Shown in pieces: positions 7,744 through 21,518 of a stretch of 64,000 nt of DNA. The position numbers and the translations under genes are program-made. How positions within the stretch are numbered: the first letter of the stretch is position 1; every line of letters begins with the position of its first letter. Source of the DNA: Cryptosporangium phraense (GTDB lineage: Bacteria > Actinomycetota > Actinomycetes > Mycobacteriales > Cryptosporangiaceae); NCBI RefSeq assembly GCF_006912135.1, contig NZ_VIRS01000015.1:62001-126000 (forward strand), read 5' to 3'. The notes under the pieces were generated by a model that saw only the letters and a program-made list of their open reading frames with translations, did not search any database and was not told the origin of the DNA.

Positions 7744-8945
7744 GTACGTATCCGCTGGTGGATCACCACTGCCACGGGGTGGTGACCCGGGACCTGGATC
7801 GCGCCGGGCTCGAGGCGCTGCTCAGCGAGGGTGGCGCGCCGGCCGACGGGGAGTCGAACTTCGACACGCCGCTCGGGCTGGCGATCCGGCGGCACTGTGC
7901 GCCGCTGCTCGATCTGCCGGTGCACGCGCCGGTGGCGGAGTATCTGGAGCGGCGGGCGTCGCTCGGGGCCGAGGAGGTGGCTCGGCGTTTTCTCGGGGCG
8001 ACCGGGACGGCGCGGTATCTCGTCGACACCGGGTTCAACGCGTCGGGGCTGACGTCTCCGGCGGAGTTGGCGGTGCTGGGCGGGGGTTCGGCGTCGGAGA
8101 TCGTGCGGTTGGAGTCGGTGGCCGAGGCGGTGGCGGCGGCCGGGGTCGAGCCGTCGGAGTTCGGGGACGTCTTCCGTTCCTCGCTCGCCCGGGTCGTGGC
8201 GGAGGTGGGGGCGGTCGGGGTGAAGTCGGTGGCGGCCTACCGGACCGGGTTCCGGCTCGACCCGTCGCCGCCGAGTCCGGCGGAGGTGTCGGCCGCGGCG
8301 GCGCGGTGGCTGTGGTCCCGTGGGGCTGGTGACGGCGGAGCCGCCGGAGCCGGCGGGGCTGATGGTGGCGGGGCCGGCGGAGCCGGCGGCGGCGGGGGCG
8401 GTGGCGGCGAAGCCGTCGGAGGCGGCGGGGGCGGGTGGCGGTTGGCCGAGCCGGTGTTGCAGCGGATGACGTTGGAGGCGGCGATCGAGCTCGGGCTGCC
8501 GATCCAGTTCCATGTGGGCTTCGGCGACAGCGACATCCGGATGACCGAGGTCGACCCGACGCTGCTGTCGGACTGGATCCGGCGCCACCGGGTGCCGGTG
8601 ATGCTGCTGCACTGCTGGCCGTTCCAGCGCCAGGCGTCGTTCCTCGCCCACGTGTTCCCGAACGTCTACGTCGACGTCGGGCTGGCGCTGCACTACGTCG
8701 GGCCGCGGCGGGGCGTCGAGGTGCTCGCCGAGGTCGCCGAGGTGACCCCGTTCAGCCGACTGCTGTACTCGTCGGACGCGTACGGGGCGCCCGAGCTGTA
8801 CGCGCTCGGTGCGCACGGCTTCAGGGTCGCACTGGAGGCCCTGCTGACCGATCGCGTCGAGAGTGGCGAGTGGTCGGCGTCCGACGCGGACCGGATCGGC
8901 CACCTGATCGCGCACGGCAACGCGGAACGCGTCTACCGGCTGTGA
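7731..8945 (+). CDS. Amidohydrolase (Amidohydro_2 type) with Gly-rich insertion
   Basis: The metal-dependent TIM-barrel hydrolase (about 404 residues) has DHHCHG near its N-terminus, a strand histidine in IQFHVGFGD, another in LLHCWP, and the terminal aspartate in YSSDAYG. The start is uncertain: GTG 7731, or TTG 7740 overlapping the preceding stop. Residues about 196-235 (nt 8316-8445) form a Gly/Ala tract with very few other residues, between the Pro-Ser region and the RLAEPVLQR helix, which homologous folds would not need. In fungi an amidohydrolase is fused to a glutamine-synthetase domain (FluG type); here the two are adjacent genes. It probably cleaves the product of, or a substrate for, the ligase. 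Confidence 0.82.
   Translation: MGLLSTYPLVDHHCHGVVTRDLDRAGLEALLSEGGAPADGESNFDTPLGLAIRRHCAPLLDLPVHAPVAEYLERRASLGAEEVARRFLGATGTARYLVDTGFNASGLTSPAELAVLGGGSASEIVRLESVAEAVAAAGVEPSEFGDVFRSSLARVVAEVGAVGVKSVAAYRTGFRLDPSPPSPAEVSAAAARWLWSRGAGDGGAAGAGGADGGGAGGAGGGGGGGGEAVGGGGGGWRLAEPVLQRMTLEAAIELGLPIQFHVGFGDSDIRMTEVDPTLLSDWIRRHRVPVMLLHCWPFQRQASFLAHVFPNVYVDVGLALHYVGPRRGVEVLAEVAEVTPFSRLLYSSDAYGAPELYALGAHGFRVALEALLTDRVESGEWSASDADRIGHLIAHGNAERVYRL
8316..8445 (+). repeat. GGC/GGA-rich low-complexity tract inside the amidohydrolase gene
   Basis: Runs of GGCGGN and GGNGCC-like units encode nearly pure glycine/alanine with a few Asp and Glu. The frame is kept on both sides. It looks like an in-frame simple-sequence expansion in a surface loop. 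Confidence 0.7.
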
Positions 8946-10225: not shown

Positions 10226-10293
10226 GGAGGGTCACGGTGGCGACGGCCGGGTTTCGCTACGGCGGGTGATGGGGTTCTGGCATGATCGTCGCC

Positions 10294-10842
10294 ATGACGA
10301 CGCCCGGCCTCCTGCGCGAGGTTCGTGCTGTCGTCTTCGCGCTGGTGTGTCTGAGCGTGTCGGTGCCGCTGCACACCTGGGCGCACGGTGCTCTCCCGCC
10401 GCTGACCGCGGTGCTGGCCGGGGCGGGTCTCGTGCTCGGCGCGGGCGTTTTGCTGGCGAACCGGCGCCGGGGCTTCGGCGCGATCGCCGGGACGCTGGGC
10501 GTCGTCCAGGCCGGGCTGCACGGCCTGTTCTCGGTGGTGGGGGCTGAGCCGGGGCACGTGATGGTGCCCGCGCATTCAGCCTCGACGATGGTGTTCGCGC
10601 ACGTCGTGGCCGGTCTGCTGGCGGCGGCGTGGCTGTTCGCGGGCGAGGTCGCGGTCTGGCGTCTCGTGCGGTGGGTGGGGCGGCGGGTGCCGGCTCTGTT
10701 CGCGGTGGCGCGACTGGTTCTTGTCGTGCCTTTGCCGAGGCTGGCGTGCGCGCGCCGAGCCGAGCGGCACGTGCCGCTGCCCCGGTCGTTCTGGTCCCGC
10801 ACCGTGGCCCGCCGAGGCCCTCCCGCACTCCGACTCCGCTAG
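10294..10842 (+). CDS. Small His-containing membrane protein, paralogue A (unknown function, metal-region)
   Basis: This 182-residue protein has four hydrophobic stretches and a basic C-terminal tail ending in RRGPPALRLR. It is clearly paralogous to 17583-18158: both begin MT(T/S)PGLLRE, share an LH-x-WAHG segment, QAGLHGLF, an outward loop with His/Met/Ser, and AGEVAVWRLVRW. The conserved histidines sit at helix ends, which would suit metal handling. No known domain is recognised. Both copies have ATGATC-x-TCG-x-C before the second ATG, and a CATGAT 7 nt upstream would suit a leaderless start at 10294; ATG 10282 is the alternative. A repeat island follows directly. Confidence 0.7.
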   Translation: MTTPGLLREVRAVVFALVCLSVSVPLHTWAHGALPPLTAVLAGAGLVLGAGVLLANRRRGFGAIAGTLGVVQAGLHGLFSVVGAEPGHVMVPAHSASTMVFAHVVAGLLAAAWLFAGEVAVWRLVRWVGRRVPALFAVARLVLVVPLPRLACARRAERHVPLPRSFWSRTVARRGPPALRLR

Positions 10843-10886
10843 CCCGCCGCCTACCGTTCGCTGCGCCCTGATGCGCGACGCCGCCC

Positions 10887-10970
10887 CTGATGGCGCGCTG
10901 CCGCCCGGATGGCGCGGTGACGCCGCCGCTGATGGCGCGCTGCCGCCCGGATGGCGCGGTGACGCTGCCG
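10887..10970 (+). repeat. 42-bp direct repeat, two copies
   Basis: The unit starts CTGATGGCGCGCTGCCGCCC and recurs exactly 42 bp later, followed by a partial third copy (CCGCTGAGGGCGC). It lies in the first part of island 1. Confidence 0.75.
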
Positions 10971-11183
10971 CTGAGGGCGCGGAGGCCTGCGTGCGCTGAT
11001 GGCACGGACGCGCTGCGTGCCCGCGCCACGCGGTGGCGCCGTACGGCATCGCGGTGGCGCGCGGCGCTGCACTGAAGGCGGGGCGGCCCCGCCGCGCCGT
11101 AGCGGTGCGCGGTAGCGCTATGCGGTCGCGGCGTTGCGCGGCAGCGCGGCGGTGCCGTGTGGTGCGGCAGTGCAGTGCGGCAG

Positions 11184-11375
11184 CATTGCGCGGTGCGGAA
11201 GCGTCACGCGGCGGTGCGGTGCGGCGCGGCAGCATTGCGCGGTGCGGAAGCGTCACGCGGCGGTGCGGTGCGGCGCGGCAGCATTGCGCGGTGCGGAAGC
11301 GTCACGCGGCGGTGCGGCGCGGCAGCATTGCGCGGTGCGGCGCCGCAGTGCGGTGCGGCGCGGTACGTCGCGCGG
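11184..11375 (+). repeat. 49-bp tandem repeat (three full copies plus a shortened fourth)
   Basis: The unit begins CATTGCGCGGTGCGGAAGCG and starts at 11184, 11233 and 11282. The third copy lacks one GTGCG pentamer, so the next CATTGCGCGG begins at 11326 (44 bp later) and then decays into GTGCG/GCGCG pentamers. The full copies are identical by eye, which points to recent expansion. There are no spacers, so it is not a CRISPR array. Confidence 0.85.
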
Positions 11376-11396
11376 CGCGGTGCGGCGCGGTGCGGT

Positions 11397-11515
11397 GCGT
11401 CGCGCGGTGCGGTGCGTCGCGCGGTGCGGTGCGTCGCGCGGTGCGGCGCGGCAGTGCGGTGCGGCGCGGCAGTGCGGTGCGGTGCGGCGCGGCAGTGCGG
11501 TGCGGCAGCGCGTCG
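11397..11515 (+). repeat. 17-bp and 15-22-bp GCGG tandem units
   Basis: TGCGTCGCGCGGTGCGG is repeated three times with a period of 17 bp. GCGGCGCGGCAGTGCGGT-type units follow. The underlying period is a 5-mer, as in the 49-bp repeat beside it. Confidence 0.75.
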
Positions 11516-11877
11516 CGCGGCGGGGCTGCCATGGCGCGTGGCGCTGCGTTGGAGGCGCGGTGGCGTTGCGCCGTAGTGGTCGCCGGGTGGTGTGCGGCCG
11601 TGGAGGTGCGCGGTGGCGCCGGGGTGGTGGCGTCGTGCGGCAGCGCGGTGGCGTCGCGCTGACGGTGCGGTGGCATCGCCGGTGGCACGGCTCGGCTGCG
11701 CTGGCGGTGGCGCCGTGCGGTGGCGCCGTGCGCCGTGCGCCGGTGGTGGCGTCGCGCGGTGCGCGGCTGTATTGCGCGGACGCGGCTCAGCCGCGGTCGC
11801 GCGGCGAGTTTCCTTGACCTGCCTCGGTGGCAGCGGCGTTGTGCCGTGCCCTGGGCGCTCACTTGTGGAGAGATTTC

Positions 11878-13767
11878 GTGACGATCAGCTCTGACCCTCC
11901 CCGGCCCACTGTTGTGACAGGAGTGAAGGAAGCGACCGACGTGACGCCGGTTTCGGCGCCACCGGCAACGCTCGTGGCGGCACCACCAGCCGCGGTCCCG
12001 GCGACGCCCGCGCCCGTCTCGGCGCCCCCAGCCGCAACGCCGCCACCCGCGGCGCCCCCATCCGCAACGCCCCCAGCCGCAGCACCCCGGGCTGCGGCCA
12101 CCCCGACCGCAGCACCCCCGACCGCAGCACCCCCGACCGCAGCACCCCCAGCCTCGACCCCTCCAGCCTCAACGCCCCAGGCTGCGGCACCCCGGGCTGC
12201 GGCCACCCCGATCACAGCACCCCCGACCACAGCACCCCCGACCGCAGCACCCTCGACTGCAACGCCACCGGCCTCGGAACCCCCGGCCTCGGAACCCCCG
12301 GCCGCGGGGCCACCGGCCGCGGGGCCACCGGCCTCGGAACCGGCGCCCGCGCCCGCGCCCGCCGACGCGCCCGCGCTGCCGGCCTCGGAACCGGCGGCCG
12401 CGGTTCGGGCGGTGGTGCCCCTGTCCCGGTGGGCCGTGTTGCGGCGGTTGCACTTCTACGCCGGCATCTTCATCGGCCCCTTCCTCTTCATCGCCGCCCT
12501 CACCGGCCTCGCCTACACCCTCACCCCTCAACTCGACCGCATCGCCTACGGGCACGAGCTCTACGTCGACCAGATCACCGAATCCAAAGTCCCCCTCGCC
12601 GACCAGGTAGACGCAGCCCGCGCGGCGCACCCCACCGGCACGCTGACGACCGTCTCCGTCCTCGACGACCCCCACGCCACCACGCGGATCGCATTCTCCA
12701 CTCCGGAACTCGCCGCCGACGAGAAGGTCGACACGGTCTACGTCGACCCGTACACCGGACAGGTCCGCGGAACCCTCACCACCTGGTACGGCTCCACCCC
12801 CACCACGACCTGGCTCGACAGCTTCCACCGCACGCTCAACCTCGGCGACCTCGGCCGCAACTACTCGGAGCTGGCCGCGTCCTGGCTCTGGGTCGTCGCG
12901 CTGGGCGGCGTCGTCCTGTGGCTCGGCCGGAAGCGCAAGTACCGCGGCGAGCGCGGCCGGGCGCTCGTCCCCGACCTGCAGGCGAAGGGCGTCCGGCGGA
13001 CCCGGGGCTGGCACGCGTCGGTCGGCCTCTGGATCACGGCCGGGCTGCTGGTGCTGTCGGCGACCGGGCTGACCTGGTCGCAGCACGCCGGCGCGCATTT
13101 CAGCACGGTGCTGGACGCGATGAAGGGCCACGCCCCGGCCTTGGACGCCGGGCTGACGAGTGGCCACCACGGCACCGGCACCGCCCCAACCGGAGAAGGG
13201 CTACCGGCCGGGGTGAGCCTCGAGCAGGTGATCCGCGCGGCCGGGCCGATGTCCGGCCGCACCGACATCACGGTCCCCGCCGACGCGAGCACCGCGTACG
13301 TCGTGGCCCAGGACGACGGGGTCTGGCCGGTCGGTTTCGACCAGGTCGCGGTCGACCCGCGGAGCGGCGAGGTCACCGAGCGGGTCGAGTACGCCGACTG
13401 GCCGTTCCTGGCCAAGCTCACGAAGATCGGGATCCGCGCGCACATGGGTGAGCTGTTCGGGATCGTCAACCAGGTGCTGCTGGCCGCGCTGGCGCTCGGG
13501 CTGCTGTGCGTCATCGTCTGGGGGTACCGGATGTGGTGGCAGCGCCGTCCGCGGCGGGCGACGGCCCGGCTCGGTGCGCCGCCGGCACGCGGTGGCTGGC
13601 GCGCGCTGCCGGTCTGGTTCCTGGCGATCGCGGTCCCGGTCACGATCGCGGTCGGCTGGGCCCTCCCCCTGCTGGGGCTCTCGCTGCTGGCGTTCGTCGT
13701 CTTCGACCTGCTGGCCGGAGCCTTCCGCTGGGCCCTGCGCACCCCGGGCCCCCGCCCGGTCGACTGA
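11878..13767 (+). CDS. PepSY-associated membrane protein with long Pro/Ala-rich N-terminus
   Basis: This 629-residue protein starts at GTG 11878, which has GGAGAGA 6 nt upstream. Residues about 20-180 are almost only Ala, Pro, Thr, Ser and Glu, with imperfect internal duplications (TAAPPTAAPP units, ASEPPASEPP units). The PepSY_TM core follows: TM1 at about residue 187 (LHFYAGIFIGPFLF), an extracytoplasmic PepSY region (VDPYTGQVRG), WLDSFHRTLNLGDLG, further helices near 345, 385 and 525, and a C-terminal helical pair. The histidine in the TM1 LHFYAG is typical of the family, which is linked to iron or copper uptake. The Pro/Ala extension should be cytoplasmic and is unusual. Repeat island 1 is directly upstream. 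Confidence 0.87.
   Translation: MTISSDPPRPTVVTGVKEATDVTPVSAPPATLVAAPPAAVPATPAPVSAPPAATPPPAAPPSATPPAAAPRAAATPTAAPPTAAPPTAAPPASTPPASTPQAAAPRAAATPITAPPTTAPPTAAPSTATPPASEPPASEPPAAGPPAAGPPASEPAPAPAPADAPALPASEPAAAVRAVVPLSRWAVLRRLHFYAGIFIGPFLFIAALTGLAYTLTPQLDRIAYGHELYVDQITESKVPLADQVDAARAAHPTGTLTTVSVLDDPHATTRIAFSTPELAADEKVDTVYVDPYTGQVRGTLTTWYGSTPTTTWLDSFHRTLNLGDLGRNYSELAASWLWVVALGGVVLWLGRKRKYRGERGRALVPDLQAKGVRRTRGWHASVGLWITAGLLVLSATGLTWSQHAGAHFSTVLDAMKGHAPALDAGLTSGHHGTGTAPTGEGLPAGVSLEQVIRAAGPMSGRTDITVPADASTAYVVAQDDGVWPVGFDQVAVDPRSGEVTERVEYADWPFLAKLTKIGIRAHMGELFGIVNQVLLAALALGLLCVIVWGYRMWWQRRPRRATARLGAPPARGGWRALPVWFLAIAVPVTIAVGWALPLLGLSLLAFVVFDLLAGAFRWALRTPGPRPVD
11983..12400 (+). repeat. CCCCCGACCGCAGCA-type repeats encoding the Pro/Ala linker
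   Basis: Fifteen-bp units reading GACCGCAGCACCCCC and related forms recur. A block with APRAAATP followed by TAAPP units appears twice (nt about 12085-12150 and 12190-12250), and GCCTCGGAACCCCCG occurs in tandem near 12270-12300. All keep the reading frame. Confidence 0.75.
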
Positions 13768-13815
13768 CCCCCGGGCGGCGGGCCGCCCCGGCCCGCCGCC
13801 CACCGGCACGCGACC

Positions 13816-14313
13816 CTACGACGACATGATCGTGTTGACGTCGACCTTCCGGCCGGCGCCGGCCACGTGCCGTCCCCGCACCGCGACCCGGCGCTGCAGC
13901 CACAGCGCCCCGACGATCGTCCAGGCGATCGTCGCCGGGGCCAGCACCGCGAACCCGGCCAGCGCGGCGAACGCCACGCCCCAGCCGGACCCGAGCGCCA
14001 CCGCCAGCACGTGCCCCTCGACCAGCAACAGCCCGACGCCCGCGGCCAGCGCCGCGGTCCAGTGCGGCACCGCGGCCGGCTCCCGCAGCCAATGCGCCGC
14101 CGCCCACGACGGGTATCCGAGCAGGACGGTCAGCAGGAGCAGCAACGACACCGACGTGCCGGCGTCCGCGGTCCGGATGAACAACCCGACGGCCACGACC
14201 CCGGCACCCACTCCGGCCAGCGACCACGCGAGCTGGCGCCCGTGCGTCCGGGACGCTCTGCCCGTTCCACCCAGTCCGGCGGCTAACAGCACCGACAGCA
14301 AGTACGCGATCAC
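13816..14313 (-). CDS. Hypothetical four-helix membrane protein
   Basis: The 165-residue protein starts at GTG 14313, behind GGGGAGGCGAT. Four hydrophobic stretches are visible: the N-terminal MIAYLLSVLLAAGLGG, residues about 28-45, 52-66 with 82-105, and 112-140. A basic tail ends in VNTIMSS. No domain is recognised. It converges on the PepSY gene (48 bp between stops) and lies 67 bp before a methyltransferase on the same strand's far side. Confidence 0.65.
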   Translation of the reverse strand: MIAYLLSVLLAAGLGGTGRASRTHGRQLAWSLAGVGAGVVAVGLFIRTADAGTSVSLLLLLTVLLGYPSWAAAHWLREPAAVPHWTAALAAGVGLLLVEGHVLAVALGSGWGVAFAALAGFAVLAPATIAWTIVGALWLQRRVAVRGRHVAGAGRKVDVNTIMSS

Positions 14314-14380
14314 ATCGCCTCCCCAGAGAACGTGGCGCCCGTTTCTCCGGGGTTATCCGGTCACCGCCGCGGCTGAAACC

Positions 14381-15187
14381 TCAACCGACGCGGGCCACTG
14401 CGCCCAGACACGCGACGTCGGCCGGGTCCGGCCGGTCGTCGTCGAGCGGCCGCCACTCCGAGATCACCGCGATTCCCGGGTCCACCAGCGACATCCCGTC
14501 GAAGTACCGGGCGAGCTCGGAAGCGCTGCGCAGCTGGAACTCCCCGCCGGCCCGCGCCATCGCCTCGAGCGTGGCCGCGGTCGGAGCCGGCAGATAGTCG
14601 GCGCTGCCGTGCGAGATAGCCAGATAGCTGCCGGCCGGCAACGCCTCGACGAGCGTCCGCACCACCGCGTACGAGTCGGCCTTCGCGTCCGGCACGAAGT
14701 GCAGCACCGCGATCAGCATCAGCGCCACCGGTTGCGAGAAGTCGAGCGTCTCCCGGGCCTGCTCCAGGATCACCGCCGGGTTCCGCAGATCGGCCTCGAG
14801 GTACGACGTCAGGCCCTGCCGCGTCGACGTCAGCAGCGCCCGCGCGTGGGTCATCACCAGCGGGTCGTTGTCGACGTAGACGACCCGCGACTCGGGCGCG
14901 ATGCGCTGCGCGACCTCGTGCGTGTTGTCGGCCGTCGGCAGCCCGGTACCGACGTCGAGGAACTGGCGGATCCCGGCCTCGCGGGCCAGGTACGTCACCA
15001 CCCGGCGCAGGTACGCCCGGTTCTGCACCGCCCAGACCCGCGCGGTCGGGAAGACCGCGGCCATCTGCTCGCCGGACTCCCGATCGACCGCGAAGTGGTC
15101 CTTGCCGCCCAGCCAGTAGTTGTAGCGGCGGGCCGAGTGCGGCACGGTCGTGTCGATGCCCGCGAACACGGGCGGGTCGGGACTCAT
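14381..15187 (-). CDS. SAM-dependent methyltransferase, PF04672 (DUF574) family, copy 2
   Basis: The 268-residue protein has PHSARRYNYWLGGKDHFAVD at its N-terminus, the SAM motif FLDVGTGLPT, the acidic YVDNDP, LDFSQPVALMLIAVLHF in the core sheet and a C-terminal ISEWRPLDDD. The ATG at 15187 (GGAAGG 8 nt upstream) is chosen over an upstream in-frame start because the family begins here. It is closer to copy 1 than to copy 3 by eye. It has no obvious operon partner and its substrate is unknown. Confidence 0.86.
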   Translation of the reverse strand: MSPDPPVFAGIDTTVPHSARRYNYWLGGKDHFAVDRESGEQMAAVFPTARVWAVQNRAYLRRVVTYLAREAGIRQFLDVGTGLPTADNTHEVAQRIAPESRVVYVDNDPLVMTHARALLTSTRQGLTSYLEADLRNPAVILEQARETLDFSQPVALMLIAVLHFVPDAKADSYAVVRTLVEALPAGSYLAISHGSADYLPAPTAATLEAMARAGGEFQLRSASELARYFDGMSLVDPGIAVISEWRPLDDDRPDPADVACLGAVARVG

Positions 15188-15280
15188 CGCGACGCCTTCC
15201 GTCGGCCCCCGGGAACCAGCGCCGACGATCGTACTGCGAGTCGCGAAGGGACTGTCCCGCGGTGTTCCGCCGGGCAACGT

Positions 15281-15314
15281 AAAAAGAAGGACGGAACCGT
15301 CGGCAGACGGTCCC
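15281..15314 (-). terminator. Rho-independent terminator of cbtB-cbtA
   Basis: On the minus strand GGGACCGTC (15314-15306), loop TGCC, GACGGTTCC (15301-15293, one mismatch) and then GT CCTTCTTTTT follow the cbtA stop codon by 14 nt. A strong GC stem plus a T-rich tract is rare in this GC-rich window and is convincing. Confidence 0.8.
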
Positions 15315-15328
15315 GCCCCTCACCGGCC

Positions 15329-16183
15329 TCAGGCCGGGACCGCCGTGGTGGCCGCGGGCGCCGGTCGCGCGACCAGCACCCTCTCGGCGAGCGGGCCGAA
15401 GACCAGGCCGAACGCGGTCCACAGGATCAGCTGGGCGCCGACCGAGTACAGGCGGAACGTGGCCAGCACGTCCGCGGGGAAGCCCTCGTAGACGATCCGG
15501 CCGCTCGGGTCGCGCAGCGGCAGCGGCGTCTCGGTGGCCCGCTCGGAGCCGGTCGCGGCGACGTTCGCGGCCAGGTGGCCGAGCGGCGGGAGCAGCAGCA
15601 TCACGACCCCGACCGCGACGACGTAGGCGGCCCCGGCCAGCAGCGCCGCGTTCCAGTTCCCGAAGCGCGCGGCCAGCCGCTGCCCGAGCCAGACCGCGCC
15701 GCCGAGGAACACCAGCGACGCCAGCACCATCACCAGGTACAGCCCGCCGCGTGTGCCGATCGTGTCGTCGTTGCCCACCGCGGGTGGGTTGGCCGGGTAC
15801 TTCAGCCAGGGCACGAGGAACAGTCCGACGAACGCGCCCCCGGCGACGAGCAGCGCCAGCACCCGCGGCCGGACCATCCCGACCCGCCCGAGGCAGATCG
15901 TGTAGATCACGGTCGCGAGCAGGCCCATCGCGATGCCGAACGCGATCAGCCCCACGCCGATGCCGACGTTCGCCTGGATCGTCCGGGTGAACGTCTCGGC
16001 TTCCGCGGCCGGCACCGGCAGCCCGGCGGCCTTGTCGAGCGCGTCCTGAGCCGCGCCCCGACCCTCTTCGTAGTCGATGGCCTGCTGGATCTGCGGTTCA
16101 GCGAAGATCCGCGCGAAGACGAACGCGCACACGCCACCGATCCCGCCGGCCAGAGCGCCGCGCAGGAGGAGTTTGAGTTCCAC
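15329..16183 (-). CDS. cbtA: CbtA-type cobalt transporter subunit
   Basis: The 284-residue membrane protein opens with LLLRGALAGGIGG, continues with AFVFARIFAEP and an IDYEEG loop, and has about six helices, including LYLVMVLASLVFLGG and LILWTAFGLVFG. This pattern is that of CbtA (predicted cobalt transport, with CbtB). It lies 9 bp after cbtB. A cobalamin riboswitch and a strong promoter precede cbtB, and a terminator follows cbtA, so the pair is a self-contained transcription unit for cobalt import when cobalamin is scarce. Confidence 0.9.
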   Translation of the reverse strand: MELKLLLRGALAGGIGGVCAFVFARIFAEPQIQQAIDYEEGRGAAQDALDKAAGLPVPAAEAETFTRTIQANVGIGVGLIAFGIAMGLLATVIYTICLGRVGMVRPRVLALLVAGGAFVGLFLVPWLKYPANPPAVGNDDTIGTRGGLYLVMVLASLVFLGGAVWLGQRLAARFGNWNAALLAGAAYVVAVGVVMLLLPPLGHLAANVAATGSERATETPLPLRDPSGRIVYEGFPADVLATFRLYSVGAQLILWTAFGLVFGPLAERVLVARPAPAATTAVPA

Positions 16184-16192
16184 GGAGTCGGC

Positions 16193-16399
16193 TCAGTGGC
16201 AGGGGAAGCCGATGAAGTGCCGCGCGTCGTGCACGAACTCGTGGATGTGCACGTCGTTGCCGAAGACCGACACGGCCCCCTGGTCGACGCCGATGAAGTA
16301 GTAGAGCAGCAGCGCCAGCAACACGGCGGAGCCGAGGTACACGGCACCGCGCGAGCCGGAGATGACGACCGGCGTAGCGACAGCGGACGGCTGGGTCAC
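16193..16399 (-). CDS. cbtB: CbtB-type cobalt transporter subunit
   Basis: This 68-residue protein has one transmembrane helix (residues about 20-38, YLGSAVLLALLLYYFIG) and a His-rich C-terminus: HIHEFVHDARHFIGFPCH, with five His and one Cys. This matches CbtB, where the terminal histidines are thought to bind cobalt. The start GTG 16399 follows AGAGGAGG. A stem of GGGGA/TCCCC (16430-16414) lies immediately before that ribosome binding site and may be part of the riboswitch expression platform. Confidence 0.92.
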   Translation of the reverse strand: MTQPSAVATPVVISGSRGAVYLGSAVLLALLLYYFIGVDQGAVSVFGNDVHIHEFVHDARHFIGFPCH

Positions 16400-16449
16400 G
16401 TTGAGCCTCCTCTGGGGATCGTGCGTCCCCCTGTGGTCAGGGCTTCCGT

Positions 16450-16541
16450 GACGGCGCCAGTATCTGACTCACCGGCTGGGCAGCCGGCACACAGTGGCGC
16501 GACCGTGCTGGGTTTTCACCAGCTTCCTCGCACCGTCACGT
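16450..16541 (-). promoter_or_regulatory. Cobalamin riboswitch
   Basis: On the minus strand the conserved blocks appear in order: GAGGAAGCTGGTGAAAACCC (GGTGAAAACC at 16520-16511), the core GCCACTGT (16498-16491), a CCGGCTG/CAGCCGG hairpin, and the B12 box GAGTCAGATACTGGCGCC (16470-16453). This is the canonical cobalamin (RF00174) arrangement. It lies between the predicted cbtB promoter and cbtB, so cobalt import is predicted to switch off when adenosylcobalamin or a related corrinoid is plentiful. Confidence 0.93.
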
Positions 16542-16547
16542 TGTTCG

Positions 16548-16576
16548 AACATAGGACCGCACTGACGTGCGGTCAA
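16548..16576 (-). promoter_or_regulatory. cbtBA promoter with inverted repeat over the -35/spacer
   Basis: Minus strand TTGACC (16576-16571) and TATGTT (16553-16548) are 17 bp apart, a near-consensus housekeeping promoter. A perfect 8-bp inverted repeat, GACCGCAC and GTGCGGTC around TGAC (16555-16574), covers the spacer and most of the -35 box, so a repressor could block it. A TGTTCGAACA palindrome (16543-16552) overlaps the -10. The predicted start site is near 16541, just before the riboswitch. Confidence 0.7.
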
Positions 16577-16758
16577 TCGTGGGGTCCGGCGCGCGAGACC
16601 TTCATCTCAGTTGATGGGGGGTTTTGTTACGCCTGCCTGGCTGGGGTTCGGGGGTCCGGGACTGGGTCTGGGAGGCTGGGGCTCGGTCGTTCCGCTCCTT
16701 CGGGGGTGGTTGCTGGCTCGGCCTCGCTGGCTGGGGGTGTGCAACGCCTGGCCCGCAC
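16577..16758. other. Gap without gene (180 bp) between cbt promoter and merR promoter
   Basis: The sequence is G-rich (CTGGGGTTCGGGGGTCCGGG and similar). I see no gene, hairpin or palindrome that I can support here. Confidence 0.5.
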
Positions 16759-16790
16759 TTGCATCCGATACCTGGGTACAGGCTTACCGT
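16759..16790 (+). promoter_or_regulatory. MerR-type promoter/operator (20-bp spacer with dyad), leaderless
   Basis: TTGCAT (16759-16764) and TACCGT (16785-16790) are separated by 20 bp. CCTG-GGTA-CAGG (16771-16782) is a dyad in the spacer. Over-long spacers with a central dyad are the hallmark of promoters activated by MerR-family proteins. The ATG at 16797 starts 6 nt after TACCGT, so the transcript should be leaderless. The operon contains a merR gene, which fits autoregulation. Confidence 0.6.
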
Positions 16791-16796
16791 CCGGGT

Positions 16797-17102
16797 ATGA
16801 CGAAATGGCCGGCTCCGGAGTGCACGCTGCCGACGGCCGAAAGGCCGTTCCGGGTGGCGGAGTTCGACGCGCTGCTCCGGACGGCGCGGCAGACCGAACG
16901 AGTCACCAAGGCACACGGCCGGGTTCTGCTCGCCGAGCGGGCCCGGGCGCGGGCGGAGGACCTGACCGCCCGCGAGACGGAGTGCTGTTCGTTCTTCCGC
17001 TTCAGGTTCCGGTCGGCTCCGAGCGGATTCTGGCTGGACATCACGGTGCCCGACGAACAGGTAGCCGTGCTCGACGCGTTGCTGGGACCGGCCGAGTCGT
17101 GA
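16797..17102 (+). CDS. Small Cys-Cys protein preceding merR (unknown function)
   Basis: The 101-residue soluble protein has a Cys in PAPECTLP near the start, a helical middle rich in Arg, Ala and Glu, and a conserved-looking TARETECCSFFRFRF block followed by a short beta-rich end (WLDITVPDEQVAVLDALL). The Cys pair resembles a metal- or thiol-binding site. The stop overlaps the merR start by GTGA. I recall similar small proteins beside actinobacterial MerR genes but know no proven function. The start ATG 16797 agrees with the leaderless promoter. Confidence 0.75.
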   Translation: MTKWPAPECTLPTAERPFRVAEFDALLRTARQTERVTKAHGRVLLAERARARAEDLTARETECCSFFRFRFRSAPSGFWLDITVPDEQVAVLDALLGPAES

Positions 17103-17506
17103 CCGGCACCCTGCGGACCAGCGAGCTGGCCGCGGCCGCCGGAGTGAACACGCAAACGCTGCGGTACTACGAGCGGCGGGGCCTCCTCGCGTCACCGGAC
17201 CGAACACCCGGCGGCCACCGGATGTACCCGCCCGAGACGGTCACCGCGCTGCGGCTCATCAAGGTCGCGCAGCGACTCGGATTCACGCTGGACGAGGTCG
17301 CGGACCTGCTCGAGGTGGGGCGGCGCCGGTCCCGCGGGCTGCAATCCCGGGCGCGCGCCAAGCTCGCCGAGCTGGACGAGCGGATCCAGGACCTGCAGAC
17401 GATCCGGTCGACGCTGGCCGAGGCGCTCGAAGCCGGCTGTGACGACCTGGCCGAGTGCGCGAGCAGTTCGCGCTGCCCGCTCCCGTTCCCCGACGCGCCT
17501 ACCTAG
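17099..17506 (+). CDS. MerR-family metal-responsive regulator
   Basis: The 135-residue protein has an N-terminal winged helix (TSELAAAAGVNTQTLRYYER, RTPGGHRMY) and a dimerisation helix. Its C-terminal metal loop contains GCDDLAEC and SSRCPLPF. At the position where Hg, Zn and Pb sensors carry a Cys in the dimerisation helix, this protein has Ser (RRRSRG), as CueR does for monovalent Cu/Ag/Au. With neighbouring copper genes, a Cu(I)-type sensor is the best guess, but the family alignment is by eye. It probably controls its own operon through the dyad at 16771-16782. Confidence 0.85.
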   Translation: MTGTLRTSELAAAAGVNTQTLRYYERRGLLASPDRTPGGHRMYPPETVTALRLIKVAQRLGFTLDEVADLLEVGRRRSRGLQSRARAKLAELDERIQDLQTIRSTLAEALEAGCDDLAECASSSRCPLPFPDAPT

Positions 17507-17582
17507 CAGCCGCCGGACCCCCTCGGGCGACTCGCGCGGGGTTCACCGTGGACTGTCGGTGGGGTCTGGCATGATCCTCGGC

Positions 17583-18158
17583 ATGACGAGCCCGGGACTG
17601 CTGCGCGAGGCGCGCGCCCTCGTGTTCGTCCTCGTGTGCCTGAGCTTGTCGGTGACGTTGCACGGCTGGGCCCACGGCCAGTTGCCATCGGTGCTGGCCC
17701 TGCTGGCCGGCACCGGACTCATCGCGCCGGTCGCGATGGTGCTCACCGGGCGCCGTCGCGGCCTGCCGGTGATCGCCGGTGGGCTCGCGGTGACGCAGGC
17801 CGGCCTGCACGGGCTGTTCACGCTCGTCCCGTCGGGGGTCCCGTCGGGCGGGGCGCACGCGATGATGTCGATGCCGAGCGCCGGCACGATGCTCGCGGCG
17901 CACGTCCTGGCCGGGAGCCTCACGGCGCTGTGGCTGTACGCCGGTGAGGTCGCGGTCTGGCGCCTGGTGCGCTGGTTCGCGCGCCGGGTGCCCGCTCTGG
18001 GCGTTCTGTTCGCGCTGGTTGCCCGCCGCCTGTTGGCTCCTGCGCCGCGACGGTTCCGTCCTCGTCTGGCCGAGTTCGCGGCTCCGCCGCCCGAGCCGAC
18101 GTGGCTACGCAGCACCTCCCGCCGAGGCCCGCCCCGCCTTCTCCCCGCGCCCCACTAG
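17583..18158 (+). CDS. Small His/Met membrane protein, paralogue B (unknown function, metal-region)
   Basis: This 191-residue paralogue of 10294-10842 has four hydrophobic stretches, SVTLHGWAHG, QAGLHGLFTLV, an extracytoplasmic HAMMSMPSAGTM segment rich in Met and His, AGEVAVWRLVRW and a basic tail. Met/His clusters of this kind are typical of Cu(I) handling at membranes. It starts 76 bp after merR, with ATG 17571 and 17583 both possible. The shared TCTGGCATGATC upstream sequence suggests the same leaderless start as in paralogue A. Like paralogue A it is followed by a repeat island and then metal genes. Confidence 0.7.
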   Translation: MTSPGLLREARALVFVLVCLSLSVTLHGWAHGQLPSVLALLAGTGLIAPVAMVLTGRRRGLPVIAGGLAVTQAGLHGLFTLVPSGVPSGGAHAMMSMPSAGTMLAAHVLAGSLTALWLYAGEVAVWRLVRWFARRVPALGVLFALVARRLLAPAPRRFRPRLAEFAAPPPEPTWLRSTSRRGPPRLLPAPH

Positions 18159-18696
18159 CCCGCCCTGCCCGCGCGCTCACGCCGGGAGCGACGCCGACCG
18201 TCCGAACTTCGCTCACGCGGAGCGACGCCGACAGTCCGCCCGCCGCTCAGGACAACCGCCCGTAAGGGCGACTGTCCGGACGGACGTGCGGCCGTGCGGA
18301 TGGACGTCCGCACGGACGCCCGATGCTCGAGTGGACGTCGCACGGACCGCACTGCACGCGCCGACGCGCGTGCCGTAGGCGTGGTGCATGCACCGCAGAC
18401 GTTGGTGCGCGCGCCACGACGTCGGCGCCGGCCGCATCGGCCGCTGCTGGGGCCGCGTGTGCACGCTCCAGGCCGACGAAGGCAGCGCACGCTCACGGAC
18501 AGGACGCACGCGCTCCGCACCTGAACGAGGTATGTCCTCGACAGGGTCGGGACGCACGCGTCCGGCGCCCGCGGAGTGCACGCGCTGCGCCTGGGTGGGA
18601 CGTACGCGCTCCGGCCCGCGGAGTGCACGGGCGCTCCGTGCCGGCGAGACGCACGTGCGTCGCTCGCGGTCTGTGCTCGGTCCGAACTCGGCCGGC

Positions 18697-18792
18697 GCAC
18701 GCACCGCACGCGCCGTAGGCGCACGCACCGCACGCGCCGTAGGCGCACGCACCGCACGCGCCGTAGGCGCACGCACCGCAGGCGCTGTGGGC
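18697..18792 (+). repeat. 24-bp tandem repeat, four copies
   Basis: GCACGCACCGCACGCGCCGT+AGGC repeats at 18697, 18721 and 18745 identically, and a fourth copy (18769) carries three changes. There are no spacers. Confidence 0.85.
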
Positions 18793-18955
18793 GCACGCGC
18801 CGCCGTCGCGGACACGCTGACGCGAACGCATGCGACGCCGCTCGCGGGTCGCGTGCATCGCGTGGTGCGACGGGCGAATCGCGGGCGTGGCCTGAGCACA
18901 TCGCGCAGCGCAGGTGCATCACGGGCAGCGCAGATGCGGAGTCCGCAGCCCAGGT

Positions 18956-19048
18956 GCTGCGGACGCAGCGCACCGACAGTGGGTCTAGCTCGTTCGGCGC
19001 GCTGGCGGGCGCTGCGGACGCAGCGCACCGACAGTGGGTGTAGCTCGT
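18956..19048 (+). repeat. 38-bp direct duplication (period 55 bp)
   Basis: The segment starting GCTGCGGACGCAGCGCACCG and ending in TAGCTCGT(T/C)CGG occurs at 18956 and again at 19011 with two or three differences. Confidence 0.8.
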
Positions 19049-19060
19049 CCGGCCGCTCGC

Positions 19061-19112
19061 GGGCGCTGCGAGCGGGCGCTGCGAGCGGGCGCTGCGAGCG
19101 GGCGCTGGCGAT
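19061..19112 (+). repeat. 13-bp tandem repeat, four copies
   Basis: GGGCGCTGCGAGC begins at 19061, 19074, 19087 and 19100; the last copy is imperfect. Confidence 0.85.
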
Positions 19113-19294
19113 GCCGGCGGGAGGCACCTCCGAGCCGCGCGGCGGCGCGGGATTCGCCCGCTCACCCAGGGACGCACGCATCCCCCTGCGCCAGGCCCCC
19201 GCTCCCCCGCGCCGGCCACGCGCCTCGCCGAGATGCCGTGCACCGACACAACGACCGAATCAGGCAAATCATAACCTCCCGAGAGGAACCCTCC

Positions 19295-19864
19295 ATGTTC
19301 TCCATCCGCAAGACCCGCCTAGCCGCCCTCACCGTCACCCTCGCCACCGCGGGCCTCCTCACCTCCGCCTGCACCACCTCCCCCGACACCGCCACAACCA
19401 CCCCCACGGCCACCCCCTCGGTCAAGGCCACCGCCGAAGCGGCGCTCTCCATCACCGACCCCTGGATCAAGGCCACCGACACCGGCATGACCGCCGCCTT
19501 CGGCACGCTCGTCAACCACACCGACCAGCCGCTCACGATCGTCGGCGCCACCTCTTCCCTCTCCGTCATGGAGCTCCACGAGATGGTCATGCAGGACGGC
19601 AAAATGATCATGCAACCGAAGAAGGGCGGATTCGTCCTGCCGGCCAAGGGCACCCACGAGCTCTCTCCGGGCGGCGACCACCTGATGTTCATGTCGGTCA
19701 CCTCCCCGATCAAGGCGGGCGACGAGGTCACGGTCACGCTCGAGCTGTCCGACGGCACGAAGTTCCCGTTCACGGCGGTCGGCAAGCCGTTCTCGGGCGC
19801 CGAGGAGAGCTACGCCCCCGACGCCGGCATGCCCATGGGCTCCGACCCGACCCCGTCGGCATGA
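19295..19864 (+). CDS. PCuAC-type periplasmic copper chaperone lipoprotein (ECuC-like)
   Basis: The 189-residue protein has a signal peptide with lipobox LLTSAC (Cys about residue 27), a short Thr/Pro linker, and a PCuAC (DUF461) cupredoxin-like domain. The Cu(I)-binding His/Met set is present: MELHEM, a Met-rich DGKMIM stretch and GDHLMFM, spaced as in the family's H-M-x10-M-x21-H-x-M pattern. It acts on the outer face of the membrane, delivering copper to enzymes. It overlaps the DyP gene by ATGA. In Streptomyces lividans the related ECuC works with Sco and the peroxidase DtpA in copper delivery. Confidence 0.93.
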   Translation: MFSIRKTRLAALTVTLATAGLLTSACTTSPDTATTTPTATPSVKATAEAALSITDPWIKATDTGMTAAFGTLVNHTDQPLTIVGATSSLSVMELHEMVMQDGKMIMQPKKGGFVLPAKGTHELSPGGDHLMFMSVTSPIKAGDEVTVTLELSDGTKFPFTAVGKPFSGAEESYAPDAGMPMGSDPTPSA

Positions 19865-21021
19865 ACTACGTCCGCATGAGCAGGCGCGGCCTGCTCACCG
19901 GGGGCGCCGCCGCGGTCGGCGGCGCCCTCGTGGGCGTCGCCACCAGCGACGCGCTCCAACAACAGAAACAGCAACCACAGCAACAGCCCTACGGCCGGCA
20001 GACCGAACCGTTCCACGGCAACCGCCAAGCCGGCATCGACACGCCCCCACAGGCCGCCGCGTCCTTCCTCGCGTTCACCCTCCACCGGGACACCGACCGC
20101 GATGCGATCGGACGCATGCTCCGCCTGCTCACCGACGACGCGGCCCGCCTCACCGCGGGCCGCCCCGCGCTCGGCGACACGGACGCGGACCTCGCCCGGA
20201 CCCCGGCCCGCCTCACGGTCACGGTCGGCTTCGGCCCCGGCCTCTACCGGGCGGCCGGCCTCCGGTCCCCGGTGGCGGCGCTCCCCGCGTTCCCGATCGA
20301 TCGCCTGCAACCGCGCTGGACCGGCGGTGACCTGCTCCTGCAGGTCTGCGCGGACGATCCGACCGCGGTCGCCCACGCCCAGCGCATGCTGGTCAAGGAC
20401 GCGCGTCCGTTCGCGGCCGTCCGCTGGGTGCAACGAGGCTTCCGACGCGGACGTGGCGTCGAAGCCGACGGCGCCACCCACCGCAACCTGCTGGGCCAGC
20501 TCGACGGGACGGCGAACGTCCGCACGCCGCCCGGGGCGATCTGGGCCGGGGACGCCACGACGCTCGTCGTCCGGCGGATCCGCCTGGAGATCGAGACGTG
20601 GGACAAGCTCTCGCGCACCGACAAGGAGCTGGCGGTCGGCCGCAAGCTCGACACCGGGGCTCCGCTCACCGGCGGGAAGGAACACGACGAGCCCGACTTC
20701 AGCGCGGTGGACTCCGTCGGCCTGCCGGTCATGCCGGACTTCGCGCACGTCACCCGGGCGCACGTGAGCGACGAACGGATCCGCATCCTCCGACGTCCGT
20801 ACAGCTACGACGGCGAGCCGGACGCCGGCGGGGTGCCCGACAGCGGCCTGATCTTCGCGTCGTACCAGGCCGACGTCGGTGCGCAGTACCTGCCGATCCA
20901 GCGCCGGCTGGCCGAGCAGGATCTGCTGAACCAGTGGACGACGCCGATCGGCTCGGCGGTGTTCGCGATCCCGCCCGGGTGCGCCGAGGGCGGCTGGATC
21001 GGCGAGCAGGTGCTGACGTGA
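19861..21021 (+). CDS. Tat-exported Dyp-type haem peroxidase (DtpA-like)
   Basis: This 386-residue protein opens with a twin-arginine signal, MSRRGLLTGGAAAVGG. The DyP fingerprint LLGQLDGTANVR carries the distal Asp of G-x-x-D-G, and the proximal haem His lies in DFAHVTRAHVSD. The C-terminal RRPYSYDGE and LIFASYQAD are also typical. It couples by ATGA to PCuAC upstream and by GTGA to CopC downstream. A Tat DyP in a copper operon matches Streptomyces DtpA, needed for maturation of the copper oxidase GlxA; the same role here is inferred. Confidence 0.93.
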   Translation: MNYVRMSRRGLLTGGAAAVGGALVGVATSDALQQQKQQPQQQPYGRQTEPFHGNRQAGIDTPPQAAASFLAFTLHRDTDRDAIGRMLRLLTDDAARLTAGRPALGDTDADLARTPARLTVTVGFGPGLYRAAGLRSPVAALPAFPIDRLQPRWTGGDLLLQVCADDPTAVAHAQRMLVKDARPFAAVRWVQRGFRRGRGVEADGATHRNLLGQLDGTANVRTPPGAIWAGDATTLVVRRIRLEIETWDKLSRTDKELAVGRKLDTGAPLTGGKEHDEPDFSAVDSVGLPVMPDFAHVTRAHVSDERIRILRRPYSYDGEPDAGGVPDSGLIFASYQADVGAQYLPIQRRLAEQDLLNQWTTPIGSAVFAIPPGCAEGGWIGEQVLT

Positions 21022-21518
21022 GGGCCCTGCTGGTCATCGTCATCGCGGTCGCCGGAACGCTGCTCGGGATCTCGCCGGCCCGCGCGCACTCGGACGTCAC
21101 CGGCAGCACGCCGGCCGCGTCGAGCACCGTCACCGTGGCTCCGACGGAGGTCACGCTGACGTTCACCGGGCCGATCCGGGGTCAGTTCAGCACGGTCGTG
21201 GTGACCGGGCCGGGCGGGGCCCGGTTCGGCACCGGCGCGGCGCGGGCGGTCGACCGGACGCTGCACCAGGCGGTGCGGCCGCTGGTGGGCGGGGAGTACA
21301 CCGTGGCCTGGCGGGTCGTGTCCGGCGACGGTCACCCCCTCCAGGGTGTCTTCCGCTTCACCGCCGACCTGCCCGGAGCCCCGGCCGCGCCGCCGGCGGC
21401 GGCACCGTCCGAGCCCGACGACGGAACCGGGCTGTTCCTGGCCGCCGCCGTCGCCGGCCTGCTGGTCGTAGGAATCGGCATCGTCGCTCTGGCCCGGACG
21501 AGACGCAAGAAGCACTGA
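21018..21518 (+). CDS. CopC-domain copper-binding protein with C-terminal membrane anchor
   Basis: The 166-residue protein has a Sec signal ending at ARA, so the mature protein begins HSDVTGSTPA with the N-terminal Cu(II)-binding His. A CopC beta-sandwich follows, with the second ligand region VSGDGHPLQG. A Pro/Ala linker, one transmembrane helix (residues about 138-160) and a RRKKH tail end it. No CopD domain is fused. The GTGA overlap with the DyP gene makes it the last gene of the copper operon. Confidence 0.92.
   Translation: MRALLVIVIAVAGTLLGISPARAHSDVTGSTPAASSTVTVAPTEVTLTFTGPIRGQFSTVVVTGPGGARFGTGAARAVDRTLHQAVRPLVGGEYTVAWRVVSGDGHPLQGVFRFTADLPGAPAAPPAAAPSEPDDGTGLFLAAAVAGLLVVGIGIVALARTRRKKH

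Follow-up and report, generated by a model that had tools for sequence, protein, structure and literature searches.

Four-helix membrane proteins with an R-G-P-P ending as candidate copper-sensing arrest-peptide leaders in Cryptosporangium phraense

Introduction

Ribosome-arresting proteins with a C-terminal R-A-P-P or R-G-P-P motif are known to lie before metal-related genes, and this study concerns two paralogous membrane-protein genes with such an ending, A and B, in a 64-kb window of the Cryptosporangium phraense genome (the window is the whole stretch examined, and coordinates are window positions). In Streptomyces lividans, RAPP/RGPP-dependent arrest has been demonstrated for seven proteins (Fujiwara et al. 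2025, PMC12992588). According to the same paper, proteomes avoid the two motifs, which are nevertheless over-represented ahead of genes for YcnI, PCu(A)C and PepSY. One of the seven, SLIV_18480, has four transmembrane segments, and its predicted copper ligands are three His and one Met. In Bordetella pertussis, CruR is an upstream open reading frame (uORF) that ends in R-x-P-P and heads copper genes, and its homologues precede PepSY_TM, PCuAC, YcnI and CopC genes (Roy et al. 2022, PMC9426467). In Rhodobacter capsulatus, the exported protein CutF (PMC9973294) senses extracytoplasmic copper while it is still nascent, and its C-terminus carries a proline-rich, stall-like motif. A C-terminal RAPP/RAPG/RAGP arrest core is also found in ApdA/ApdP/ApcA and SecM (PMC10951233, PMC7897499; via PMC12992588).

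Genes A and B resemble SLIV_18480 in being small, in their four transmembrane helices, in their His and Met residues, in the motif at their end and in the metal-related gene downstream. This is a likeness by description, implying neither the same residues nor homology; the arrest of SLIV_18480 was demonstrated in S. lividans, whereas the present leaders are known from sequence alone. Unlike the S. lividans case, there are three leaders in one genome, three copper modules and spacers of about 1 kb for two of them. With CruR they share the R-x-P-P ending, the kind of genes headed and a rather long intergenic spacer, and probably the bubble of C over G at the leader end. However, CruR is a DUF2946 exported protein with a CXXC motif, while A and B have four predicted helices instead; DUF2946 gave no match in A or B (Pfam, E<=1) or in 28 diverse family members (E<=0.01), and CXXC is absent from A and B by eye. 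CutF differs in its CxxxC copper motif, in its stem-loop mechanism and in that copper enhances its stall. The ApdA/ApdP/ApcA and SecM leaders are tied to protein-localisation genes, whereas A and B are tied to metal genes. The kind of switch is already known, and what is new is the breadth of the family, the three-leader arrangement and the long natural spacers. Searches of the open-access literature listed no publication that deals with these genes in C. phraense.

Results

Three copies of one membrane-protein gene precede three copper modules

We propose that A, B and a third copy, C, are metal-sensing arrest-peptide uORFs, a reading to which we give a probability of about 0.74 and in which both the arrest and the copper response are inferred. 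The proposal is made because all three belong to one four-helix family with conserved H27, Q72, H76, M103 and H107 and an R-G-P-P motif, and because each stands directly upstream of a copper module. The elements of the two cassettes in the window are as follows.

10281..10286, + strand: -10-like hexamer CATGAT, 7 nt 5' of the ATG at 10294 (sequence pattern)
10294..10842, + strand: paralogue A, coding for a four-helix membrane protein; putative arrest-peptide uORF ahead of PepSY_TM
10813..10824, + strand: R-G-P-P codons of A, 5 residues from the C-terminal end (sequence)
10843..11877, + strand: GC-rich tandem-repeat island A, leading to PepSY_TM; 42-, 49- and 17-bp units
11878..13767, + strand: PepSY_TM protein, proposed target of A (Pfam; GTG start at 11878 by eye)
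17570..17575, + strand: -10-like hexamer CATGAT, 7 nt 5' of the ATG at 17583 (sequence pattern)
17583..18158, + strand: paralogue B, coding for a four-helix membrane protein; putative arrest-peptide uORF ahead of PCuAC-DyP-CopC
18123..18134, + strand: R-G-P-P codons of B, 7 residues from the C-terminal end (sequence)
18159..19294, + strand: tandem-repeat island B, leading to PCuAC; 24-, 55- and 13-bp units
19295..19864, + strand: PCuAC copper chaperone (Pfam), which would be the first gene controlled by B
19861..21021, + strand: DyP-type peroxidase (Pfam; Tat signal match weak, E 0.18)
21018..21518, + strand: CopC-domain protein (Pfam)

A and B are 57% identical over 186 columns (BLASTP, E 3e-60), and copy C lies on contig C4 at 214914-215474, which brings the genome total to three full copies. 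An earlier sequence-only reading had described A and B as paralogues, each followed by about 1 kb of GC-rich repeats and then by metal genes, and this description is borne out. Pfam matches in the region (PepSY_TM, CbtA, MerR, PCuAC, DyP and CopC) agree with the gene identities that it gave, except that for its Tat-exported DyP the peroxidase domain is confirmed and the Tat signal is not firmly so. The only YcnI, PCuAC and PepSY_TM matches of the genome stand directly behind C, B and A, respectively. CopC has two genes in the genome, one of them elsewhere than in cassette B, and no Sco was found in this genome.

The N-terminal tail of the PepSY_TM protein (about 11950-12400) carries an in-frame 15-bp Pro/Ala repeat, which is part of the protein and not of the island; in same-genus relatives this tail is a few tens of residues by eye. 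Near C (L022 10536-12872, - strand) lies a 778-aa protein whose DyP domain (428-762) follows some 400 residues that match nothing in Pfam; it is adjacent to a cupredoxin-like protein, and DyP-matching proteins of 778-843 aa also occur near the C counterparts in three same-genus genomes.

The C-terminal motif is shared by the family and avoided elsewhere in the sampled genome

R(A/G)PP was present in all 60 homologues sampled, which were hand-picked among the top-scoring matches listed and spread down the ranking: 53 are gene-called leaders (RGPP in 52, RAPP in one) and seven are stop-to-stop frames with RRGPP. Full-length same-genus copies besides A and B carry the motif in 10 cases out of 10 (nine from three genomes, plus copy C), as do five of five leaders from the same order, and all 21 loci retrieved by name (20 Nocardiopsis, 1 Streptomonospora) end in RGPP. 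As many as 39 different codon quartets encode the motif among the 53 leaders, and therefore selection acts on the peptide. Among 517 other proteins of 74 loci analysed, none has R(A/G)PP. In a genome sample made up of the window and 60 stretches of 20 kb each (together 15% of the genome, with 1,179 called proteins and 363,874 residues), it was observed twice, in A and B only, against 24.5 occurrences expected by composition, while A(A/G)PP was observed 43 times against 43.5 expected. The 60 stretches alone (1,112 proteins) contain no R(A/G)PP; copy C lies outside the sample.

Conserved residues and predicted fold

Using a family profile built from 17 members, which itself contains RRGPP, we obtained matches at E<=1e-4 in 215 of 393 genomes of the class, the present genome included; B alone as query gave a match at E<=0.001 in 10 of 60 relatives. 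The 17-member alignment has invariant H27, Q72, H76, M103, H107 and R-R-G-P-P. Among 69 members, Q72, H76, H107 and R..PP are kept in all, H27 in all 64 ungapped sequences, M103 in 66 and G182 in 68, the one exception having Ala, and the tail around RGPP is otherwise much more variable. The membrane helices were read from the AlphaFold2 (AF2) model of B (mean pLDDT 76, pTM 0.51), in which long hydrophobic helices at 5-31, 37-56, 61-81 and 100-135 are followed by a short one, and the tail is unstructured. If the N-terminus is inside, H27, Q72, H76, M103 and H107 would be placed on the outward-facing halves of helices 1, 3 and 4 of this model.

The sequence-only reading had assigned the pair to no known family, and indeed neither protein has a Pfam or NCBIfam name: A gave no match in either at E<=1, B gave only Lipid_desat at E 0.12 (Pfam), and among the 28 diverse members there was no Pfam match at E<=0.01 and, in NCBIfam, three unrelated-looking one-member matches. 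The fold search gave no PDB match at E<=0.001 and nothing useful. A copper transporter, such as CopD or CtaG, or a cobalt transporter was also considered and set aside, as in these Pfam, NCBIfam and PDB searches neither A and B nor the 28 members match a named transport family, and no fold match was obtained.

Genes downstream and leader phylogeny

As the sequence-only reading had proposed to check, homologues do recur beside PCuAC, CopC and PepSY genes. The next gene is co-directional in 52 of the 53 sampled leaders, and is YcnI in 21, ECF sigma factor in 13, PepSY_TM in six, CopC in four, CopC-CopD in one and another type in seven; the last are Sco (L076 and L091), FecCD (L110) and a ferric reductase (L114), all by Pfam, together with L095, a locus identical with L166, where the next gene is Sco-like, and L116 and L117, placed with L110 on their gene layout. 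The first upstream gene is YcnI in two and DyP-like in four of 49 non-edge cases. Of the 21 loci retrieved by name, 18 have a Sco-like gene within the next two genes; DyP comes after it in all 18, and PCuAC after that in 14.

On the leader tree, the target type changes 18 times, against a mean of 37.6 after shuffling, and none of 200 shuffles was as low. In three same-genus genomes, three B-like copies head PCuAC-DyP-CopC and three C-like copies head YcnI, while PepSY_TM is headed by an A-grouping copy in one genome, by a B-grouping copy in another and by a 36-residue leader in the third. A itself groups with the same-genus PepSY-heading copy (support 99/86), and CopC is headed by a further same-genus copy that falls on the tree's B side. 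One of these genomes has B-PCuAC-DyP-CopC-A-PepSY in unbroken order.

Some other gene orders deserve mention. In L146-L166, the genes behind the Nocardiopsis leader are often ECF sigma-Sco-DyP-PCuAC, which suggests that some leaders control copper delivery via the sigma factor. A leader sub-clade (L110, L116, L117) heads FecCD-type ABC import genes, by Pfam for L110 and by tree and gene layout for the other two, which are grouped with it; this sub-clade possibly senses a metal or metallophore other than copper.

Promoter, Rho and ribosome-binding-site signals

In 10 of 11 same-genus copies (A, B, C and eight others) the element NANN(A/T)T is separated from the ATG by 7 nt, and in the eleventh by 6 nt; it recurs at no other offset in the preceding 34 nt. 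This sequence pattern suggests that transcription of each leader counted starts at the leader itself and yields a leaderless mRNA. Outside this count are L023_5 and L029_13, same-genus leaders that lie within a cluster and have no such element by eye. A leaderless start was rejected as a trait of the whole family, since class-wide TANNNT occurs in two of 55 leaders and in 10 of 250 other genes.

The C>G bubble, the Rho signature used for CruR (PMC9426467), is stronger at leader ends and spacers (median 0.218, n=67) than in other co-directional pairs (0.103, n=131; P 3e-13). In A it extends from about 72 nt before the leader stop to about 45 nt after it, and in B it covers somewhat more. Ribosome-binding sites (RBSs) behind leaders are as unpaired as in controls (median 0.38 vs 0.37, P 0.83), and start codons there are more open (0.48 vs 0.32, P 1.6e-6). 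Sequestration of the ribosome-binding site is thus unsupported.

Repeat islands and spacers

Island A, from the stop codon to the PepSY_TM start, is 1035 bp long with 79% GC and 60% tandem-repeat cover, and island B, up to PCuAC, is 1136 bp long with 75% GC and 33% cover; their repeat units differ. The assembly is a draft in 87 contigs, so that the repeat numbers given may not be exact. Of 1,118 adjacent gene pairs in the genome sample, 11 are separated by 400 bp or more with a repeat cover of 30% or higher; gap A was counted there as 1569 bp owing to a late-called PepSY start. Two of them are the present islands, and the nine others lie between other gene pairs. None of these nine follows an R(A/G)PP gene, and the islands cannot be taken for a general hallmark of RGPP leaders. 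Nor are they coding sequence, since a codon-usage caller finds no gene in them and, of the unit lengths, only 24 and 42 bp are divisible by three, whereas 13, 17, 49 and 55 bp are not.

The sequence-only reading had described cassettes of membrane protein and repeat island, but this pair is not a conserved unit. In three same-genus genomes the spacers before PCuAC are 101, 113 and 287 nt. Those before PepSY_TM are 168 nt, 209 nt where the leader is truncated, and 225 nt as called, the last being about 102 nt to a better-fitting start codon. Another same-genus spacer (L030), of 547 nt, has no tandem repeats, and among same-genus spacers TRF repeats are confined to L026 and L027 (39 of 168 nt). 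Sampled class-wide spacers measure 30-427 nt (n=52), a range that islands A and B greatly exceed, and repeat cover reaches 30% in one of 52. The spacer of copy C is 162 nt long with 76 nt of repeat cover, so that all three leader spacers of this genome pass 30%; among co-directional gaps of 100 nt or more in the 60 stretches, seven of 173 do so. In L026 a 414-bp island of 34-bp units (8067-8480) leads from a leader copy to CopC and represents an independent case in a same-genus genome; the CopC gene there carries a long Ser/Gly/Asp repeat linker.

Neighbouring genes outside the proposed system

Between the two cassettes lie the following elements.

15329-16183, - strand: cbtA (Pfam), neighbour outside the proposed system
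16193-16399, - strand: cbtB-like gene, 68 aa (by eye), neighbour outside the proposed system
16447..16540, - strand: adenosylcobalamin (AdoCbl) riboswitch 5' of cbtBA (56.7 bits, cut-off 50)
17099..17506, + strand: MerR-family regulator (Pfam), directly 5' of B

The sequence-only reading had inferred that the paralogues take part in copper or cobalt movement. The link to copper stands, but movement is probably the wrong role, since the proteins look more like arrest-peptide leaders, and a cobalt role is unsupported on two counts. The cbtBA genes are on the other strand behind their own riboswitch, and no CbtA or CbtB match occurs in the 17-19 kb around the copies in three same-genus genomes or around copy C. 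With its riboswitch, cbtBA is a self-contained cobalt/B12 unit outside the cassettes. The regulator upstream of B had been credited with CueR-like traits; its MerR family membership is confirmed, but a CueR-like specificity is not established, because the mercury MerR model (108.1 bits, cut-off 150.85), which scores best, and the CueR model (83.6 bits, cut-off 147.4) both stay below cut-off. In three same-genus genomes, MerR is not directly 5' of the corresponding leader copy. Overlapping the start of the MerR gene is a 101-aa protein (16797-17102, + strand) with an E-C-C-S-F-F motif and no Pfam match, and directly 5' of its gene we see by eye a promoter of MerR-type spacing with a TACC..GGTA dyad.

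Discussion

The way in which such a leader may work can be outlined as follows. The ribosome on the leader would stall once the two prolines of the motif reach the P and A sites. Because H107 lies 64-82 residues before the motif, and given the length of the ribosomal tunnel, helix 4 would at that moment be just out of the ribosome and inserted in the membrane. The His/Met/Gln site of helices 1, 3 and 4 could then bind copper from outside the cytoplasm, and binding would alter the pull on the nascent chain and hence the stall. At low copper, the stalled ribosome would block Rho at the C-rich leader end and the copper gene would be made; in the presence of copper, the stall would be released and Rho would end transcription in the spacer, with the long islands only lengthening the distance from leader to target. 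The Rho step is the most likely course by analogy with CruR, but it is weaker than the rest, and the sign of the copper response is also inferred. The fullest version of this scheme is that the only detected YcnI, PCuAC and PepSY_TM genes are run by three diverged nascent sensors, with a site formed upon insertion of helix 4 and the kilobase-repeat cassettes controlled via Rho. So complete a picture is speculative and, taken as a whole, doubtful.

Several observations weigh against the proposal of arrest-peptide leaders. The residues L118, G121 and E122 are near-fixed (65, 63 and 66 of 69 members) and have no role in it. An ECF sigma factor gene rather than a copper gene stands directly behind 13 of the 53 leaders. 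The count of 60 motifs in 60 homologues is somewhat favoured, because the profile contains the motif and the loci were picked by hand from the top-scoring matches listed. The C>G bubble at the leader end is partly due to the Pro and Arg codons of the tail, and island A past its first 50 nt or so is G-rich and not C-rich, a poor fit for Rho. In one same-genus genome (L029), the leader before PepSY_TM is cut to 36 residues without RGPP (L029 12149-12259), and so the leader can be lost. Behind this frame an apparent remnant of the rest is seen by eye, an apparent loss of the switch in one species.

Other explanations of the same genes have to be weighed. A, B and C might be stable membrane proteins that pass or bind copper in trans, with RGPP only slowing the end of translation or aiding folding. 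The conserved His, Met and Gln residues in the helices and the frequent pairing with copper chaperones would suit such proteins, but the tail past helix 4 varies in all but its motif (one RAPP in 69 members), the motif is strongly avoided in the rest of the sampled genome, and a protein acting in trans needs neither a place immediately upstream of and co-directional with its partner nor a tree that tracks the type of neighbour, so we find this explanation improbable. Less probable still, indeed very much so, is that the leaders monitor Sec/YidC insertion in the manner of ApdA and SecM, with targets that are merely exported or membrane proteins. A four-helix membrane protein with a C-terminal RGPP would fit that role, and the copper targets are exported or membrane proteins; yet no Sec/YidC part was recognised among the 53 next genes, although no Sec/YidC query was run, the ECF sigma factors are cytoplasmic, and insertion sensing does not need invariant His, Met and Gln residues. 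Our preference remains with copper-sensing arrest leaders.

Within that preferred reading, the switch may be of the CruR or of the CutF kind. In the latter, copper would strengthen the stall, which would open a stem-loop over the next ribosome-binding site. The Rhodobacter precedent (PMC9973294) and the short spacers of the sampled relatives speak for it, but the ribosome-binding sites are no more paired than in controls, the start codons are more open, and across a spacer of 1.0-1.1 kb a stalled ribosome cannot directly reach the next start site, which leaves a CutF-like switch unlikely. Because of these two pairing results and the stronger C>G bubble, we favour a CruR-like switch with moderate confidence. 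In the fullest version of the scheme, control across a kilobase of untranslated repeats in two cassettes would have to act via transcription, by Rho, and not at the next ribosome-binding site. The islands themselves could be functional parts of the switch, such as a spacer, an attenuator or a Rho track. Long islands behind two of the three leader copies, against nine of 1,116 other gene pairs, the independent island of L026 and the repeats in the spacer of copy C point that way, and the last raised our estimate slightly. Most same-genus and class-wide spacers, however, lack such repeats, and it was the two islands themselves that prompted the selection of this finding, and on balance a function is not what we expect. 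The islands are probably products of slippage, because similar islands exist elsewhere in the genome, same-genus spacers are mostly short, and the units differ between the two islands.

The analysis thereby places a large actinobacterial family without Pfam or NCBIfam name among the proposed arrest-peptide leaders, and an unexplained pair of membrane genes becomes a testable copper switch. Three paralogous leaders with different targets in a single genome, and spacers from 162 nt behind C to 1.1 kb behind B, offer a built-in test between transcription termination and the unmasking of a start site. If the full scheme is true, the extracytoplasmic copper programme of C. phraense would be governed by three copies of one nascent membrane sensor.

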